Positions 6,814-27,959 of a stretch of 35,659 nucleotides of DNA are shown here, one piece after another. A model generated the notes under the pieces. That model searched no databases, was not told the origin of the DNA, and was given only the letters and a program-made list of their open reading frames with translations. Both the position numbers and the translations under genes were made by a program. Numbering within the stretch: the first letter of the stretch is position 1; the number at the start of each line of letters is the position of its first letter. Origin of the DNA: a virus; IMG/VR virus record IMGVR_UViG_3300044949_001184, positions 1-35,659 of that record; one strand, 5' to 3'.

Positions 6814-7124
6814 TTGACGAGAGCTTCATCTACACTTTCGGGGCGGGCTGGCAACCGGCGCCAGTCAAGCGGATGGCCGACATCGCCGCCGAGGTCGCGC
6901 AGGCCAACGGCCTGACCTTGGTCGAACTGAAAAGCCGCAACCGCGCACAGCGTATCGCTCACCCGCGCCAAGAGGCGATGGCCAAGATCCATCAAACTGG
7001 CCGCTACACGCTGACGCAGATCGCCCGGTATTTCGGCTTGGATCACACGACGGTCCTCTATGGCATCCGCCAATACGAAGCGCGTGCTTCTGGCGTGAAG
7101 ATCGTTCGGCAGGTGGCCGCATGA
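6810..7124 (+). CDS. DnaA domain-IV-like DNA-binding protein without AAA+ domain
   Basis: 104 residues. Residues 43-57 RNRAQRIAHPRQEAM and 75-87 FGLDHTTVLYGIR reproduce the DnaA C-terminal signature ('R...A..R..AM' and 'FG..DHTTV...'), the part of the initiator that reads the DnaA box. The ATPase and oligomerisation domains are absent. A longer frame exists, but the Met at the ATGA overlap with the previous gene gives a protein beginning MIDESFIYTF and is preferred. It could bind DnaA-box-like sites in the phage or host origin, either to recruit host replication or to compete with host DnaA. Domain recognition is firm; the role is inferred. Confidence 0.87.
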   Translation: MIDESFIYTFGAGWQPAPVKRMADIAAEVAQANGLTLVELKSRNRAQRIAHPRQEAMAKIHQTGRYTLTQIARYFGLDHTTVLYGIRQYEARASGVKIVRQVAA

Positions 7125-8479: not shown

Positions 8480-10047
8480 CGCTCACCGACGCCAAACAGA
8501 TCGTTTTGCGCGACTATCAGGCGAACGCTATCGACGCGCTTCGCCAGAAGATCCGCAGCGGAAGCCGTCGCTTGATCCTTTGCGCCGGGACCGGGGCGGG
8601 CAAGACGCTCACCTCGGCGAGCCTGCTGCGGGAGGCCGACCGCAAGGGCAGCTTCGCCCTTTTCATCGTCGATCGCGTGGCCCTGGTCGAGCAGACCAGC
8701 GAAGTGTTCAGCGAATACGGCATCCGCCACGGGGTCATTCAAGGCATTCACCGCCGCTGGTCGCCGCGCGAGAACATTCAGGTCTGCTCTGCCCAGACGC
8801 TCGCCCGGCGCGGCTTGCTGCGCGACCCGGACCTGATCGTCGTCGATGAGGCCCATTGCCAGTACAAGGCCACGCTCGACCTGATGGCCCGCTTCCCGAA
8901 CGCGGTGAAGATCGGCCTGACTGCGACCCCGTTCACCAAGGGCATGGGGCAGCATTGGGACGACATGGTCAACGTCATCCCGACCCGCCGCCTGATCGAC
9001 GACGGCTATCTGATTGAGCCTAAAATCTACGTCGCGAAAAGCCCCGGCGATGATGAGTTCGGGCGCAACAGCTTCGGCGAGTTTAGCGACGAAAGCGCCG
9101 CTTCAGCCGGGATCAAGATCGTCGGCGATGTCGTCCAGGAGTGGATCGGCAAGACGCACGAACACTTCGGCGGCCCGGCCAAAACCATCGTGTTCAGCCC
9201 GACCGTTGAGCATGGCCGCGAGCTGTGCGCCGCCTTCAATGCCGCCGGCTATAATTTCCAACAGATCAGCTATCTCGACCGCGACGACGATGAGCGGATG
9301 GCCAAGATCGGCGAGTTCCGCAGGCCCGACAGTATCATCCACGGCCTCGTTTCGTGCGGCGTGCTGACTAAGGGCTTCGATGTTCCCGACGTCCTGATCG
9401 GCATCTCCTGCAAGCCCTACCGCAAGAGCCTGTCCAGCCACATGCAGGAAATCGGGCGCGTGATGCGGCCCATCCCCGGCGAGGAAAAGCGCGCCCTTTG
9501 GCTGGATCACTCCGGCAACATCGAACGCTTCGCCCTGGATATGTATGACGTCTGGGAGAACGGCGCCGGGGAACTGGACAAGGCCGAGAAGCGCGACAGC
9601 ATCGCCCGCGAGCGCAATCAGCAGGTCCGGGAAAAGGTCGTGTGTCCCGAGTGTTCGGGAGCCCTTCGCGGCAATACCTGCATGTCTTGCGGATGGGAGC
9701 GCCCGGCGCGGTCCAACATTCACGCGGTCGAGGGCGAGCTTCGGGAGTTCGATCCCAGTGGGCTGGGCATGACGCCGCGAGCCGGGCTGCGCGCTGAGTG
9801 CCTTAAAGACCCTCGGGGCGTCTACAGCGCCTGCGTCTACTACGCGATAGCCAACAGCCGCGAAGGCGACTGCGACAAGGCCCGTAAGAGGGCGTTTGCA
9901 ATGTGGTGCGGCATCTATCCGGGCGAGCGGGCTAAACCCGGCTGGTTCGGGATGCGAACAGGCGCCCCGAGCGCGGACGCGCTGGCCCTGGTCGAGCGCG
10001 AGGTTGCCCGGTTCCGCAAGACAAGTCGGATGCGGAGGGCTGCATGA
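8473..10047 (+). CDS. Superfamily 2 DEAD/DEAH helicase with zinc finger
   Basis: 524 residues. ATP-dependent nucleic-acid unwinding is expected. Motifs: RDYQANAI (Q-like) at 13-20, Walker A AGTGAGKT 38-45, DEAH 125-128, TAT 150-152, helicase-C 'VLTKGFDVPDV' near 297-307 and motif VI QEIGRVMR 325-332. A C4 zinc finger follows at Cys391, Cys394, Cys403 and Cys406. The C-terminal 100 residues (KDPRGVYSACVYYAI, FGMRTGAPSADALALVEREV) are of unknown function. A longer frame opens upstream, but the Met of MLTLTDAK overlaps the previous stop and fits the family. It is probably the replicative or origin-opening helicase that works with the TOPRIM primase encoded next. Confidence 0.95.
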   Translation: MLTLTDAKQIVLRDYQANAIDALRQKIRSGSRRLILCAGTGAGKTLTSASLLREADRKGSFALFIVDRVALVEQTSEVFSEYGIRHGVIQGIHRRWSPRENIQVCSAQTLARRGLLRDPDLIVVDEAHCQYKATLDLMARFPNAVKIGLTATPFTKGMGQHWDDMVNVIPTRRLIDDGYLIEPKIYVAKSPGDDEFGRNSFGEFSDESAASAGIKIVGDVVQEWIGKTHEHFGGPAKTIVFSPTVEHGRELCAAFNAAGYNFQQISYLDRDDDERMAKIGEFRRPDSIIHGLVSCGVLTKGFDVPDVLIGISCKPYRKSLSSHMQEIGRVMRPIPGEEKRALWLDHSGNIERFALDMYDVWENGAGELDKAEKRDSIARERNQQVREKVVCPECSGALRGNTCMSCGWERPARSNIHAVEGELREFDPSGLGMTPRAGLRAECLKDPRGVYSACVYYAIANSREGDCDKARKRAFAMWCGIYPGERAKPGWFGMRTGAPSADALALVEREVARFRKTSRMRRAA

Positions 10048-10967
10048 GTTTTGCCAGCCTCACCGACGCTTTGCGCGAAGCCTGCGGGGCCGTGGGCATT
10101 GATCCGCCCAAGCGCCGCCTCGTGCCCGGCCAGTGGGTTCGCACCGACACCAAGGGCCGCAACGGCAAGGATGACGCCGCCGTCCTGATCTTTGACGACG
10201 AGCGCGGCGGCATGGTCTGGAACCACCAAACCGGCGTGAGTCAGCGGTTCACGATGAACGGGGCAGGCGAGCATCGCGTGGACCCCGAGGCCGAGCGCCG
10301 CCGCAAGCTGCGGGACGCCGAGAACCACGCTCAACAGCAGATGGTCGAGCGGATCTGCGCCGACATCGTGCGCGACTGCGACCAAGGCAAGCACCCGTAC
10401 CTTGAACGCAAGGGCTTCCCTGAACAGATCGGCCTGATCTGCGAAGACCCGACCCGCTACTTCCCCGCCGGTCGCTTCGGCGAGGCGCTGGCGAAGGCGC
10501 TGCCGGGTGAGGGGCCGTTCCTGGTCATCCCCGGTCGTGTCGGCTCGAAGATCACGACCGTCCAATTCATCACCCCGGACGGGGCGAAGAAAAACATCCT
10601 GCGCGGCCACATGACCGGCGCGTCCTACAGGATCGCCACAGGGGCGCAGACGTGGGTCTGTGAGGGCATCGCCACCGCGTTGAGCGTCAGGGCCGCCCTG
10701 CGGCTTCTGGGGGTCTCCGCGACGGTCCTGAGCGCCTTCAGCGCCTCGAATGTCGAGAAGGTCGCCGCCGCTATCCCCGGCGCCCTGATCGCTGCCGACC
10801 ACGACGGCCCGAACGAGCATTTGGAAGGCAAGGGCGCAGGCGAGTTTTACGCCCGCCGGTCGGGTCGCAAGTGGACCCAGCCTCCGGCGCTCGGCGACTT
10901 CAACGACATGCATACGACCGAGGGCCTGCGGGCCGTAGCCCTGCACTTACGGGAGGCGCTGGGATGA
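10044..10967 (+). CDS. TOPRIM-domain primase-like protein
   Basis: 307 residues. The TOPRIM core has the catalytic Glu in WVCEGIATALSVRAA (Glu207) and the DxD in ALIAADHDGPN (Asp252, Asp254). The N-terminal 80 residues have a phage-primase-like module (GMVWNHQTGVSQRF) but no clear CHC2 zinc finger; the middle has RYFPAGRF and a TTVQFITPDG strand pair. This is the arrangement of phage and plasmid DnaG-like/TraC primases that make RNA primers on unwound DNA. It is coupled to the helicase (ATGA), and the pair should form the initiation module. The phage lacks a polymerase, so the host polymerase would extend the primers. Confidence 0.9.
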   Translation: MSFASLTDALREACGAVGIDPPKRRLVPGQWVRTDTKGRNGKDDAAVLIFDDERGGMVWNHQTGVSQRFTMNGAGEHRVDPEAERRRKLRDAENHAQQQMVERICADIVRDCDQGKHPYLERKGFPEQIGLICEDPTRYFPAGRFGEALAKALPGEGPFLVIPGRVGSKITTVQFITPDGAKKNILRGHMTGASYRIATGAQTWVCEGIATALSVRAALRLLGVSATVLSAFSASNVEKVAAAIPGALIAADHDGPNEHLEGKGAGEFYARRSGRKWTQPPALGDFNDMHTTEGLRAVALHLREALG

Positions 10968-11368
10968 ACCAAAGACCCCGCGCTTTCAAGTTACGCGGGG
11001 CCGGTCTGACGGACGGATTCAAGACAGTGGCGTCAGACACAGGAAGCCTACCACGGGGCGGAACCCCAGGCGAAGCGCAGTCCGAAAGAGAGAAGCGCGG
11101 TTCCCGGCACAGTGACGTTGGTGTCGAAAGTAGCTCTCAACGATCCGGGGAAGTCACTCCCACGGCTCGGCCCAAGGCGGCGGCTCGGCTCGGCCAGCAA
11201 GATCGCGAGGGTATGGGACCGGCTCTGGCGCTGAAAAGCGTCGGGGCTGGTCGTCCTATGCCCGGACAACAACTCTCTCAACCAGCAACCACAAGAGCAG
11301 AACAGAGAAGGTTAAGAACAGTGAAGCGACCGAACGTAGAAACGCTAACGATGGAGATCGGCAAATGA
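10964..11368 (+). CDS. Atypical open frame (134 codons), doubtful gene
   Basis: An open frame spans the interval between primase and the next gene, starting and ending with ATGA overlaps exactly as real genes here do. The predicted protein is disordered (Arg, Gly, Ser, Gln, Pro rich) and has no Trp, Tyr or Cys. Codons are unlike the rest of the genome: repeated AGA, TTA, CTA and GGA, which neighbours avoid. The same DNA folds into strong RNA stems. It could be a chance frame over a structured RNA, a recently acquired coding piece, or a dual-function transcript. I favour RNA but cannot exclude protein. Confidence 0.3.
   Translation: MNQRPRAFKLRGAGLTDGFKTVASDTGSLPRGGTPGEAQSEREKRGSRHSDVGVESSSQRSGEVTPTARPKAAARLGQQDREGMGPALALKSVGAGRPMPGQQLSQPATTRAEQRRLRTVKRPNVETLTMEIGK
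10974..11263 (+). ncRNA. Candidate structured RNA, about 290 nt
   Basis: Stems read directly from the sequence: CCCCGCG/CGCGGGG (10976-10982 with 10994-11000); GTCTGACG/CGTCAGAC (11004-11011 with 11031-11038); GCCT plus GGGG with CCCC plus AGGC (11046-11071), with an alternative GGAACC/GGTTCC (11060-11065 with 11099-11104); AGTGAC plus GTTG with CAAC plus GTCACT (11111-11158, bulged); and a hairpin of 24 pairs at 11209-11263 capped by GAAA. Six pairs of the last hairpin are G-U, which favours the plus strand as the functional RNA. Codon use in the interval is foreign to the genome. An A-rich, unstructured stretch follows to the next ATG. No Rfam class is recognised by eye; hallmarks of group I or II introns, RNase P, tmRNA and tRNA were not found. 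Confidence 0.5.
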
Positions 11369-11583
11369 CCCCTCCTACCCCGGCTATCGTTCAACGCATT
11401 TCTGAAGCCCTAGACACAGAGATCATCAACCAGCGCCGGGGCGTAACGACCCGCCCCTTCGACGCCTGCCTTGATCTAGATGCCGAGCGCCTAGCCCTCG
11501 CGGCCATAGACGCCATTGCAGGCCATATGCGTGAGCAGGGCTTTGTCCACCCGTCCAACTGGCTGAGGAGCCTTCTTCGATGA
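11365..11583 (+). CDS. Hypothetical protein, 72 residues
   Basis: A helical small protein: PAIVQRISEALDTEIINQR, then DLDAERLALAAIDAIAGHMR and EQGFVHPSNWLRSLLR. GGAG lies 8 bases before the ATG, so it can initiate independently of the odd block upstream, and its codon use returns to the genome norm. It is coupled by ATGA to the next gene. No family is recognised. Confidence 0.75.
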   Translation: MTPPTPAIVQRISEALDTEIINQRRGVTTRPFDACLDLDAERLALAAIDAIAGHMREQGFVHPSNWLRSLLR

Positions 11584-24907: not shown

Positions 24908-25236
24908 GAGAGTGGATTGAGGCCGCCCTACGCGATGGCGGCGACCGCTGGACCTATGAAAGCGTCATTGCCCAGATCGAAGCGGGCGAGGCGCATCTGT
25001 GGCTGTTTGAGCGGTCGGCGCTGGTTACGCAGTTCATCGACGAGGACGCGGGGCGGACGCTGTTTTTCTGGCTGGCCGGTGGCGACCTGACGGAGATCCT
25101 CTCGCACGAGGACGGGATAACAGCCTGGGGCAAGGCTCAAGGCTGCACGCGCAAGGCATTGGTCGGACGTCGGGGCTGGGAAAAGGCTCTCGGCTGGAAA
25201 GTAGTGGGCGTTGCGCTCGCGGAGAATATCGAATGA
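24904..25236 (+). CDS. GNAT-fold phage protein
   Basis: 110 residues, with YESVIAQIEAGEAHLWLFER, FFWLAGGDLTEILSHEDGIT and AWGKAQGCTRKALVGRRGWEKAL. The final 'A...GC......GR.GW...L' is the acetyl-CoA-side part of GNAT-like folds found in many podophages next to internal virion genes. Many such proteins lack proven acetyltransferase activity. TTG start by TTGA overlap. It may act in virion assembly or modify host proteins. Confidence 0.82.
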   Translation: MREWIEAALRDGGDRWTYESVIAQIEAGEAHLWLFERSALVTQFIDEDAGRTLFFWLAGGDLTEILSHEDGITAWGKAQGCTRKALVGRRGWEKALGWKVVGVALAENIE

Positions 25237-27959
25237 GCAATCTGTTCAAGTCGAAGACAAAGACGACATCTTCGACGTCATCGAACCCGCAAACGGCGGC
25301 GCTGTTTAACCCTGCGTTCAACAACATGCAGGGGCTGATCAACAGGCCGTTTACCCCGTATGAGGGGCAGCTTTCGGCGCCGATGAACGCGGACCAACAA
25401 GCGGCGCGGGGCCTGCTGAACGTCAACGCGGGACAGCGTGCGACCAACGCGGCGGCGCGTGGCGCTTACGGGCTGATGGGGTCTCAGGCCCCGGTGGTCA
25501 CGCCTGCGGCCACGCAAGCGCAAGGCTACCGGTTCCGACCGATGCGAGCGGCCAACGCCGGGCAAACCAACAACGTCACGGCGCAAGGCTATCAGCCGAT
25601 CACGGGGCAGTCGGTGCAGGCCGGGCCTGCGGCTATGGCGATGGGCCAAGGCTATCAGGCCACGCAGATGGGGCAGGCGCCGACCGCGCAAACCGCCCTG
25701 ATGAGCGGCGCGCAAGCTGGCCCGGCTGCGATGTTCAACGCGGCGTCGGCTGGCCCGGCAATGCTGGCCAACGCGCAGGGCTATCAGTCGCAAGGCTACC
25801 AGTCGCAGGGCTATGATCCGGCAATGACGGGGGCCGCGTCCGCTGGCCCGGCGGCGCTTGGTACGGCTCCGACCGCTGGCAACGCCTACATGATGCAGGC
25901 GGCGCAGGCTGGCCCGGCGGCGATGATGAACGCGCGGGGTTATGACCCGACCATGATGCAGGCGGCGCAGGCTGGCCCGGCGGAAATGGCGCAGGCCGCA
26001 AGCGTCAACCGTGGCGCTGTGCGTAACGTTGACGCCGATACTATCGCCTCGGGGATGGGGCTGTATCGAAACCCCTTTGAAGATCAGGTCGTTCAAAACT
26101 CGCTGAGCGATCTGAACCTGCAACGTCAGCGGTCGATCAATAACGCCGCTGGCGGCTTTACGCAGGCCGGGGCGTTTGGTGGGTCTCGGCAAGGCGTCGC
26201 CGATAGCCTGACGAACGAGGCGTTTCTGCGCGAAAGCGGCAATCTGTCGGCTGCAATGCGGGCGCAAGGGTTCAACACGGCGGCGGGCCTGTCGGGTCAG
26301 GACGTGGGCAACCGCTTGCAAGCGGGGATGGCGAACCAGGGCGCGGATATGTCCATCGCGGGGCAGAACGCCGGGTTTACGCAACAGGCCAACCTCGCCA
26401 ATCAGGGCGCCCTCAACAGTCAACGCCAGTTTGACGCGGGCCTGATGCAGCAAGCTGGCCTTGCCAATCAGGGCGCCGCAAACGACGCTGGCCAGTTTGG
26501 CGCGGCTGCGCAGAACACAGCGGGCCTCGCCAATCAGTCGGCGCTTAACAGCCAACGTCAGTTTGACGCGGGGCTAATGCAGCAAGCGGGCCTTGCCAAT
26601 CAAGGCGCTGCCAACAGCCGCGAGGAGTTCAACGCCGGGCTTCTCGGGCAGTTCGGGCTCGCCAATCAAGCGGCCCTCAACAACCAAAACCAATTCAACG
26701 CGGGGCTCCTGCAACAGGCCGGGCTCGCCAATCAAGGCGCGGTCAACACGGCGGGGCAGTTCCGCGCGGATGCCGGAAACCGGGCCGCTGAGTTTGGGGC
26801 GGGGGCGTTCAATCAGGCGGCGCAGTTCGGAGCCGGGGCGCAGAACACGGCGGGTCTCGCCAATCAATCGGCGATGAACAATCAAGGCCAGTTCAACGCC
26901 GGTCTTTTGCAACAGGCTGGGCTCGCCAATCAAAACGCGCTCAACAGCCGCGACGAGTTCAACACCGGACTGGCGCAACAGGCTGGCCTTGCCAATCAGG
27001 GCGCGATCAACAGCGGAAACCAGTTCAACGCTGGCTTGCTGCAACAGCTTGGCCTCGCCAACATGGACGCCAGCAATCAGGCGGCGCAATTCGGCGCGGG
27101 CGCTCAAAATACCGCAAGCCTCGCCAATCAATCCGCCCTGAACGCGCGCGATCAGTTCAACGCCGGGCTTGGTCAGGACATGACCATGGCCAACCTGTCG
27201 GCGGGCAACCGTGCGGCTGAGTTCGGGGCCGGAGCGTTCAATCAAGCGGCCGGCCAGAACGCTGCGGCGGCCAATTCCCGGCAAGAGTTCAACGCCGGGC
27301 TGTTGCAGAGCGCCGGGCAGTTCAACGCCGGTCAAATGGCGGACGCGGCCCGGTTCGGGGCGGATGCGCGCAACACGGCGTTCAATACCAACGCCACGCT
27401 TGCACAACAGGCGGCCCTCGCCAACGCGAACAACTTCCTGCAAAACAACTCGCAGAACCTCCAGGCGGCGGGCTTGCTCGGCAACATCGGCCAGCAACAA
27501 CAGGGCATGAACCTGAACGCGGTCAACGCGCTGAACGCCTTCGGCTCGCAGGCTCAACAGCTTGATCAGGCCAGCCTTGACCGGCTGTATCAGCAATACC
27601 TGCTGCAACAGCAGTATGGCCAGAACCAGATCGCGCAGACGCAAGGGCTGCTGGGTACGATCCCGAACCTGTACGCGGGGGCCTCAACCCAAGGGACGCA
27701 GGTCAATTCGCAGGCTCCGGCCCAGCTTATTGGGCAGGCGCTGCAAACCGCTGCGATGGTCGCGGCGTCTGACATTCGGGTCAAAACCGACATCGAACCC
27801 ATCGGCAAGCGCGGCGAACATAACTGGTATCGCTATCGCTACGTCTGGGATGAGCCCGGCACGGTTCGGGAGGGCGTGATGGCGCAAGAGGTCATGCACA
27901 CCGGGGCCGTGAGCGTGCATCCGTCCGGTTATCTCCAGGTCAATTACGGGGCGCTGTGA
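25233..27959 (+). CDS. Long repetitive internal virion/ejection protein with short S74-like tail
   Basis: 908 residues. N-terminal 90 residues are linker-like. From about residue 128 to 250 runs a Gln/Ala/Met/Gly-rich set of repeated 'QAGPAAM' and 'QGYQ/QGYDP' units. Residues 250-385 look like a folded part (MGLYRNPFEDQVVQNSLSDL). From 387 to about 700 comes an 11/22-residue repeat with at least ten 'LANQ' units. The end (about 844-908) has SDIRVKTDIEPIG, YRYRYVWDEPGTV and EGVMAQEV, the start of a peptidase-S74-type tail chaperone, shorter than usual. Hendecad repeats suggest very long amphipathic helices, perhaps a DNA-conducting tube or membrane-active segment at ejection. Confidence 0.82.
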   Translation: MSNLFKSKTKTTSSTSSNPQTAALFNPAFNNMQGLINRPFTPYEGQLSAPMNADQQAARGLLNVNAGQRATNAAARGAYGLMGSQAPVVTPAATQAQGYRFRPMRAANAGQTNNVTAQGYQPITGQSVQAGPAAMAMGQGYQATQMGQAPTAQTALMSGAQAGPAAMFNAASAGPAMLANAQGYQSQGYQSQGYDPAMTGAASAGPAALGTAPTAGNAYMMQAAQAGPAAMMNARGYDPTMMQAAQAGPAEMAQAASVNRGAVRNVDADTIASGMGLYRNPFEDQVVQNSLSDLNLQRQRSINNAAGGFTQAGAFGGSRQGVADSLTNEAFLRESGNLSAAMRAQGFNTAAGLSGQDVGNRLQAGMANQGADMSIAGQNAGFTQQANLANQGALNSQRQFDAGLMQQAGLANQGAANDAGQFGAAAQNTAGLANQSALNSQRQFDAGLMQQAGLANQGAANSREEFNAGLLGQFGLANQAALNNQNQFNAGLLQQAGLANQGAVNTAGQFRADAGNRAAEFGAGAFNQAAQFGAGAQNTAGLANQSAMNNQGQFNAGLLQQAGLANQNALNSRDEFNTGLAQQAGLANQGAINSGNQFNAGLLQQLGLANMDASNQAAQFGAGAQNTASLANQSALNARDQFNAGLGQDMTMANLSAGNRAAEFGAGAFNQAAGQNAAAANSRQEFNAGLLQSAGQFNAGQMADAARFGADARNTAFNTNATLAQQAALANANNFLQNNSQNLQAAGLLGNIGQQQQGMNLNAVNALNAFGSQAQQLDQASLDRLYQQYLLQQQYGQNQIAQTQGLLGTIPNLYAGASTQGTQVNSQAPAQLIGQALQTAAMVAASDIRVKTDIEPIGKRGEHNWYRYRYVWDEPGTVREGVMAQEVMHTGAVSVHPSGYLQVNYGAL
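26391..27340 (+). repeat. Degenerate 66-bp (22-codon) coding repeat
   Basis: The DNA within the ejection protein gene repeats with period near 66 bases, for example 'CTCGCCAATCA' recurring at least ten times. At the protein level each unit is two 11-residue halves of the type 'GLANQGALNSQ' and 'RQFDAGLMQQA'. Such repeats may expand or contract by recombination, so the length can differ between related phages, and short-read assembly may collapse it. Confidence 0.85.

Follow-up and report, generated by a model that had tools for sequence, protein, structure and literature searches.

A structured RNA family of Alphaproteobacteria phages and integrative elements with a copy of its 3′ end in a hairpin loop

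Direct repeats within a transcript are known from the satellite P4, in which the CI RNA silences or terminates the transcript via the seqA and seqC sites, and immunity (seqA, seqB, seqC) involves the reading of such repeats by complementary RNA from the same operon. In ColE1, a hybrid between RNA II and its template starts replication, and the RNAs GOLLD and ROOL occur also in phages of bacteria. The bridge RNA of IS621, of the IS110 family, carries guide segments in its hairpin loops (PMC11208160), the putRNA of HK022 is a nascent RNA that modifies RNA polymerase in antitermination (PMC9378689), and at the R-loop origins of phage T4 replication starts from a transcript that is hybridised to its template (PMC3016281). 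GOLLD and ROOL are large, complex non-coding RNAs of bacteria (PMC12286853), and TIGR guide RNAs provide RNA-guided DNA recognition in phages by means of an array of short guides with a Tas protein (PMC12045711). Here we analyze a block that follows the primase gene in virus record IMGVR_UViG_3300044949_001184; the entire 35,659-nt stretch of this record is referred to as the window. The block almost certainly encodes a real structured RNA, one of a family of ~310-nt, plus-strand RNAs of Alphaproteobacteria phages, prophages and integrative elements which, judged by comparison among relatives, is a new structured class in phages and mobile elements.

In typical members of the family, a direct repeat of ~19 nt is present as one copy in a hairpin loop and a second copy at the 3′ end of the RNA, beyond a long hairpin. 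The likeness to bridge RNA is that a putative loop guide matches a DNA site on the encoding element and varies with that site. However, a bridge RNA has two such loops (target and donor) and an adjacent IS110 recombinase, whereas the phage RNA has a single candidate guide loop, which matches the 3′ end of the RNA itself. In the covariation-supported structure, one loop alone had a matching DNA site (loops lacking a recognisable site cannot be judged), and no IS110 domain was detected among the neighboring proteins scanned, which were a portion of the members' neighbors. As with HK022 put, the phage RNA lies in cis at the head of an operon, on the strand of the genes that follow. In contrast, put binds RNA polymerase and, to our knowledge, has no self-copy guide, while the phage RNA is ~310 nt long, contains several pseudoknots and is only proposed to act on transcription. 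The RNA often lies beside a helicase, primase, SSB or DnaA-domain gene, a likeness to R-loop origins, although many members have no replication genes nearby and priming, too, is a proposal; the one prerequisite of such an origin that appears in the family is the same-sense copy, and we know of no counterpart to the internal guide copy in R-loop origins. P4 CI RNA shares the direct repeats within the transcript, but for the phage RNA a consistent complement of the repeat was not found from −500 to +700 (27 members), nor a convincing one in the window. GOLLD and ROOL differ in their conserved sequences and in the self-copy repeat, and compared with TIGR, the phage RNA is a single large molecule with neither an array nor a common protein.

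Members were collected by scanning viral contigs with patterns drawn from the conserved blocks and bacterial genomes with two covariance models, R1 (17 sequences) and R2 (20 sequences). The resulting alignment (A4) comprises 42 members (41 distinct), which come from phages, prophages and integrative elements. Matches were found in 12 of 398 genomes of the host order, 5 of 398 of the phylum and 6 of 385 of the host class, the last count including L057, a doubtful match (26, then 23 bits) that was kept out of the members. Two pattern-scan matches, L048 and L049, were dropped as chance matches, and plasmid records gave no match. When Rfam 15 (4,227 families) was searched, the window had no match at gathering scores and positions 10900-11450 had none at E values up to 5; the RNA in six member loci likewise had no match, nor did the GOLLD and ROOL models match, assuming that both families are in the Rfam copy used. 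ARAGORN identified no tRNA or tmRNA gene in seven member loci. Away from the RNA, L044 has a weak match to Rfam symR at 7029-7100 on the minus strand (30 bits against a cut-off of 61), probably by chance. An earlier description of the family was not found in the literature searched, a search that most subscription journals lay outside.

The window's sequence, taken singly, could not have proved a structured RNA, and relatives were needed. Its minimum-energy fold includes a 24-pair hairpin (~11209-11263) and several smaller hairpins, among them one of 7 pairs (10976-11000), but the folding energy of the block does not exceed chance (z = −0.75, with equally good folds in 24 of 100 shuffles), and that of the reverse strand is similar to chance (z = 0.03). 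Since the energy is ordinary for the composition and Rfam gives no match, the single sequence decides nothing. In the alignment, however, two-sided compensatory change occurs in 23 of 24 pairs and 97.6% of cells are paired (42 members); among 17 close members, 98.5% of cells are paired and 11 pairs show two-sided change. The covariation score of the 42 members is 0.663, as compared to 0.203 in shuffles and 0.12 at most with slid partners; none of 500 shuffles reached the observed covariation, and the slid controls paired in 33-42% of cells. Two of the helices, P-a and P-e, were outside the model used to build the alignment, and their covariation is therefore independent of it. Within helices, G-U pairs outnumber A-C mismatches by 56 to 8, which argues that the plus strand is the functional one. 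The sequence-only reading had proposed a phage-encoded structured RNA of an unrecognised class on the strength of codon use and local stems; stems of 24 and 7 pairs exist in the fold, and the proposal is borne out, although the proof comes from compensatory change in relatives rather than from the fold.

The structured RNA extends approximately from 10976 to 11288 of the window, beginning with the first hairpin and closing with the 3′ repeat copy, as delimited by conserved DNA and by the 42-member alignment; all of its elements are on the plus strand. Its core consists of helices P-a to P-e and includes two pseudoknots: one is formed by P-a and P-b, the other (P-e) by the P-c loop and a strand downstream of it. 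Helix P-a (11046..11071) pairs GCCU (11046-11049) with AGGC (11068-11071), with two-sided change in all four pairs. Helix P-b (11060..11104), GGAACC (11060-11065) with GGUUCC (11099-11104), shows two-sided change in five of six pairs and 97.6% of cells paired. Hairpin P-c (11075..11098), formed by GCGC (11075-11078) and GCGC (11095-11098) around the loop AGUCCGAAAGAGAGAA, has 100% of cells paired and two-sided change in 4/4 pairs. The most telling element is P-e (11088..11138), a pseudoknot in which GAGAG (11088-11092) of that loop pairs with CUCUC (11134-11138) and all four counted pairs change on both sides. The window's GAGAG/CUCUC is replaced by GAGUG/CACUC in L028, GGUGG/CCACC in L055, GGUGA/UCACC in L054 and GGAGU/ACUCC in L056, and the pair types include GUGG/CCAC, GUUG/CAAC and ACCG/CGGU. 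Hairpin P-d (11105..11126), CGGCAC (11105-11110) with GUGUCG (11121-11126), completes the counted helices with two-sided change in 6/6 pairs.

A helix scan of 34 non-redundant members added further elements. The best-scoring covarying helix of the scan was H2 (11005..11037), UCUGACG (11005-11011) with CGUCAGA (11031-11037). The helix at 11027..11054, GUGG (11027-11030) with CCAC (11051-11054), covaries as GUGG/CCAC, GCGG/CCGU, GCAG/CUGU and CCAG/CUGG. A weaker, covarying kissing contact (11113..11156) joins UGAC of the P-d loop (11113-11116) to GUCA (11153-11156), with UUGU/GCAA and GCAC/AGUG as variants. The scan also returned hairpin P-f (11141..11169), CGAUCCG (11141-11147) with CGGCUCG (11163-11169), and the long hairpin between the repeat copies (11209..11263), GGGUAUGGGACC.../...GGUCGUCCUAUGCCC, in which compensations occur in pairs 314-370 to 339-344. 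Hairpin H1 (10976..11000), CCCCGCG (10976-10982) with CGCGGGG (10994-11000), opens the RNA; its pair 67-85 changes from CG to UA in 4 of 11 sequences, and the helix is missing in L013.

The direct repeat flanks the long hairpin. In the window, the internal copy (11182..11200) reads GGCUC-GGCUCGG-CCAGCAA and the 3′ copy (11271..11288), which ends the RNA, reads AACUC-UCUCAA-CCAGCAA; the linker can be interpreted as lacking one base of its usual length, in both copies alike. The general layout is [5 nt]-GGCUCCG-[~8 nt] in the loop, then the long hairpin, then [same 5 nt]-UCACCA or UCUCCA-[same 8 nt]. The loop that holds the internal copy would be closed by a stem, GCGG (11177-11180) with UCGC (11203-11206), in a hairpin spanning 11177..11206; this stem was read from the alignment, outside the formal counts, where it appears as GCGA/UCGC, as ACGA/UCGU in L073 and L076, and as UCGA/UCGA in L053. 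Across elements the variable parts of the repeat include CCAGCAA, TTGAGCA, TTGTGAG, ACAGTCAT, CCGAACAGA, AAGAGTAT and others, and within each typical element the copies agree. The longest stretch in common averages 6.8 nt within an RNA and 4.4 nt between RNAs, and none of 401 permutations reached the observed sum. By this comparison of sequences, the two copies change together between elements. Pairing of GCUC with GAGC was considered as the cause of the agreement and rejected, since the agreement persists in L077, L073 and L067, where no such pairing can form. Where the copies differ, they do so in one direction: from the internal to the 3′ copy there are 47 G>A differences, 2 A>G, 2 U>C and 1 C>U, with 335 identical positions, and in the 8-nt part alone 17 G>A against 1 in reverse.

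In about half of the members, as in the window, the RNA comes after a DEAD/DEAH helicase and a Toprim primase. Elsewhere the RNA lies after an AAA_25 protein and before a portal gene (L070), after an integrase and an AlpA regulator (L071), before a gene with a DnaA C-terminal domain (L041), before terminase genes (L064, L069) or before a gene read as SSB from its sequence (L038). At most loci it is co-oriented with the surrounding genes, often just upstream of a start codon.

As both copies have the same sense, the loop copy cannot pair with the 3′ end of the RNA. The template DNA strand is its likely partner, because the complement of the 3′ copy was found nowhere else in the sequences searched, and the one-way G-to-A difference fits G·T or G·U wobble between the loop and the complement of the 3′ copy. 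We suggest, as a reading that could quite possibly hold, that the loop copy is a guide and forms a self-directed R-loop. The RNA would fold during its own transcription, and the guide loop would capture the template strand at the 3′ copy to give a short, anchored R-loop. This would sit where an early module, made up of helicase and primase or of integrase and AlpA, borders on the genes that follow; there it would most likely control passage into the downstream genes, by pausing or antitermination, or start DNA replication. Control of transcription at the module border is ranked slightly above a replication start, with packaging or recombination as possible roles. More tentatively, the family may be a new class of large, self-programming RNAs of phages and their satellites whose loops guide them to DNA at their own 3′ ends, such that an element would mark only its own genome. 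The RNA-DNA hybrid would then be a mark that serves transcription, replication or packaging, and guide and site would drift together into new specificities.

Several points weigh against the guide proposal. All of the evidence for the RNA is comparative, and pairing of guide and template is deduced from the identity of the copies and the wobble pattern. The 47 G>A differences are not all independent events, one clade sharing CCAGCAA. Two of the 42 members, L066 (1417-1700) and L070 (3617-3900), keep the core and have no recognisable pair of copies. Guide RNAs usually have a protein partner, and no protein common to all contexts of the RNA was found among the neighbors compared. The contexts are also too diverse to choose among transcription, replication and packaging. 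As a separate observation, L070 carries a short hairpin, GAACCGCCCTTAGGCGGTTC, in place of the repeat.

Of the other explanations, the one that survives best, while still rather unlikely, is that the RNA is a structural or ligand-binding leader of the gene that follows it, or a free large RNA of the GOLLD/ROOL kind, with the repeat as a paired site at which a protein binds RNA or DNA. Many members do have their 3′ end directly ahead of a start codon, and GOLLD and ROOL are precedents for large, ornate bacterial RNAs (PMC12286853). Against this, the downstream gene varies among elements, and the repeat varies freely between elements, stays matched within them and differs in one direction, a pattern not predicted for a fixed protein site. 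It is improbable that both copies are sites for a trans-acting antisense or crRNA-like RNA that silences or terminates the transcript. The transcript does carry two same-sense copies upstream of cargo or late genes, and a U in such a partner explains the G/A differences equally well; a partner made of short, separate pieces could also have escaped the complement search. In 27 members, however, that search gave only scattered hits over the stretch from −500 to +700 relative to the RNA, none of them a consistent complement, and neither a convincing complement nor a further convincing repeat site was present in the window. In three host genomes, the corresponding 19-nt site of relatives lay at the RNA, and elsewhere each genome had 0-2 sites, at 3 mismatches, as expected by chance. 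We consider it quite improbable that the RNA guides recombination, packaging (cos/pac) or nicking beside its gene with a protein of the element or the host. In L064, L069, L070 and L077 it precedes terminase, portal or capsid genes, and it is present in integrase/AlpA elements, which would suit such a role, but no recombinase, nuclease or terminase gene is common to all contexts and the site is internal to the element, not at a mapped boundary.

That the block is instead a gene for a fast-evolving, disordered protein is extremely unlikely: in the window 134 codons are open and an ATGA overlap stands at either end, yet close relatives have stops and frameshifts, the codon positions are evenly substituted and the RNA covariation is strong. 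The frame (10964..11368, plus strand) begins at an ATGA that overlaps the stop (10965-10967) of the upstream gene and ends at an ATGA that overlaps the next ATG (11365). Translated searches yielded 13 viral loci, one Brevundimonas diminuta prophage and Paracoccus phage Shpa. A TAG lies within the frame in L005, L006 and L007, which share 95-99% DNA identity with the block; in L009-L011 the frame ends after 113 aa, and no counterpart of it exists in L028, L025 and L044. In more distant loci the DNA is 71-81% conserved, yet frameshifts are present, and conservation falls in blocks, for example GAAGCGCAGTCCGAAAGAGAGAAGCGCGG. Substitutions at the three codon positions number 16/15/18 between the block and L009, as against 78/55/142 in the neighboring primase, where the third position predominates, and 25/27/25 between the block and L015, as against 74/60/114. 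The 134-aa frame matches no Pfam or PHROG family. On these comparisons, the open frame is not a gene and its position over the RNA is coincidental.

The sequence-only reading had described this frame closely: the overlaps at both ends are present, the translation contains no Trp, Tyr or Cys, the codons AGA, TTA, CTA and GGA occur in it, and the A-rich tail is real (42% A at 11289-11364, compared to 19% in the whole record). It had taken the frame to be the only one, and the minus strand of the block also holds a frame of 77 aa. The proposed extent, 10964-11364, covers the conserved RNA (~10976-11288), whereas the final 75 bases are outside it. A dual RNA and protein role, which the same reading had allowed for, is unsupported because the frame is broken in relatives and substitutions are even over codon positions. 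The pattern that it had named against itself, amino acids kept and stems not, is found in reverse, with the stems kept and the frame not. In Shpa (L015), gp47 (KR072689.1, 33048-33227) lies inside the RNA in a frame that differs from the matching stretch, and is probably a spurious annotation; small 'hypothetical' genes annotated in the RNA slot, such as this one, are probably not genes.

A different conserved RNA was found in the same post-primase slot of phages L023, L024 and L030, whose primases are 55-77% identical. This second type (L023:3420-3900; also L024, L030, L108, L109, L110, L112 and L115) has seven distinct forms, in which a short direct repeat flanks a long hairpin, with a 7-11 nt copy on either side (AGTTCAGAAAC, CCGATGAC, TCGGCAGGAT, TCGGCAGGAC, AGTTGAA). 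In L030 the copies differ by one G to A, and L112 even has GGCUCGG and UCUCAA again as linkers. The permutation statistics refer to the first type, and the set for the second is small; a nucleotide-similarity search of host-order genomes gave only two short, chance-like matches to this type. The 3′ module may be common to both types by descent or have been acquired twice, and either would make a functional arrangement more likely.

The gene upstream of the RNA in the window (10044..10967, plus strand) encodes a Toprim DNA primase (PF13362, E = 1.3e-6; PHROG 510, E = 6.9e-28), and the next open frame (11365..11583, plus strand) encodes 72 aa without a family match. Further along the window, a frame of 908 aa (25233-27959) contains numerous degenerate repeats of the GLANQGA/QFNAGL type and probably encodes a virion or internal protein. 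At other loci, a gene similar to that for a type I restriction specificity subunit lies downstream of the RNA in the integrase/AlpA element of L071/L086, and the slot adjacent to the RNA may there be one for defense cargo. The helicase match upstream of the RNA in L076/L091 is split by ~1 kb, perhaps an intron, an intein or an insertion. In L078/L093 the RNA lies between a likely tRNA-overlapping frame and a regulator-like gene, with no integrase or phage genes seen nearby, perhaps as the remnant of an element.

A structured RNA family that is strongly supported, widely spread and absent from Rfam is a discovery whatever its function. For the self-copy arrangement, which appears in two mutually replacing types of RNA, no counterpart was found. 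If the proposal is true, it would give mobile elements a novel means of distinguishing their DNA from that of hosts or competitors.
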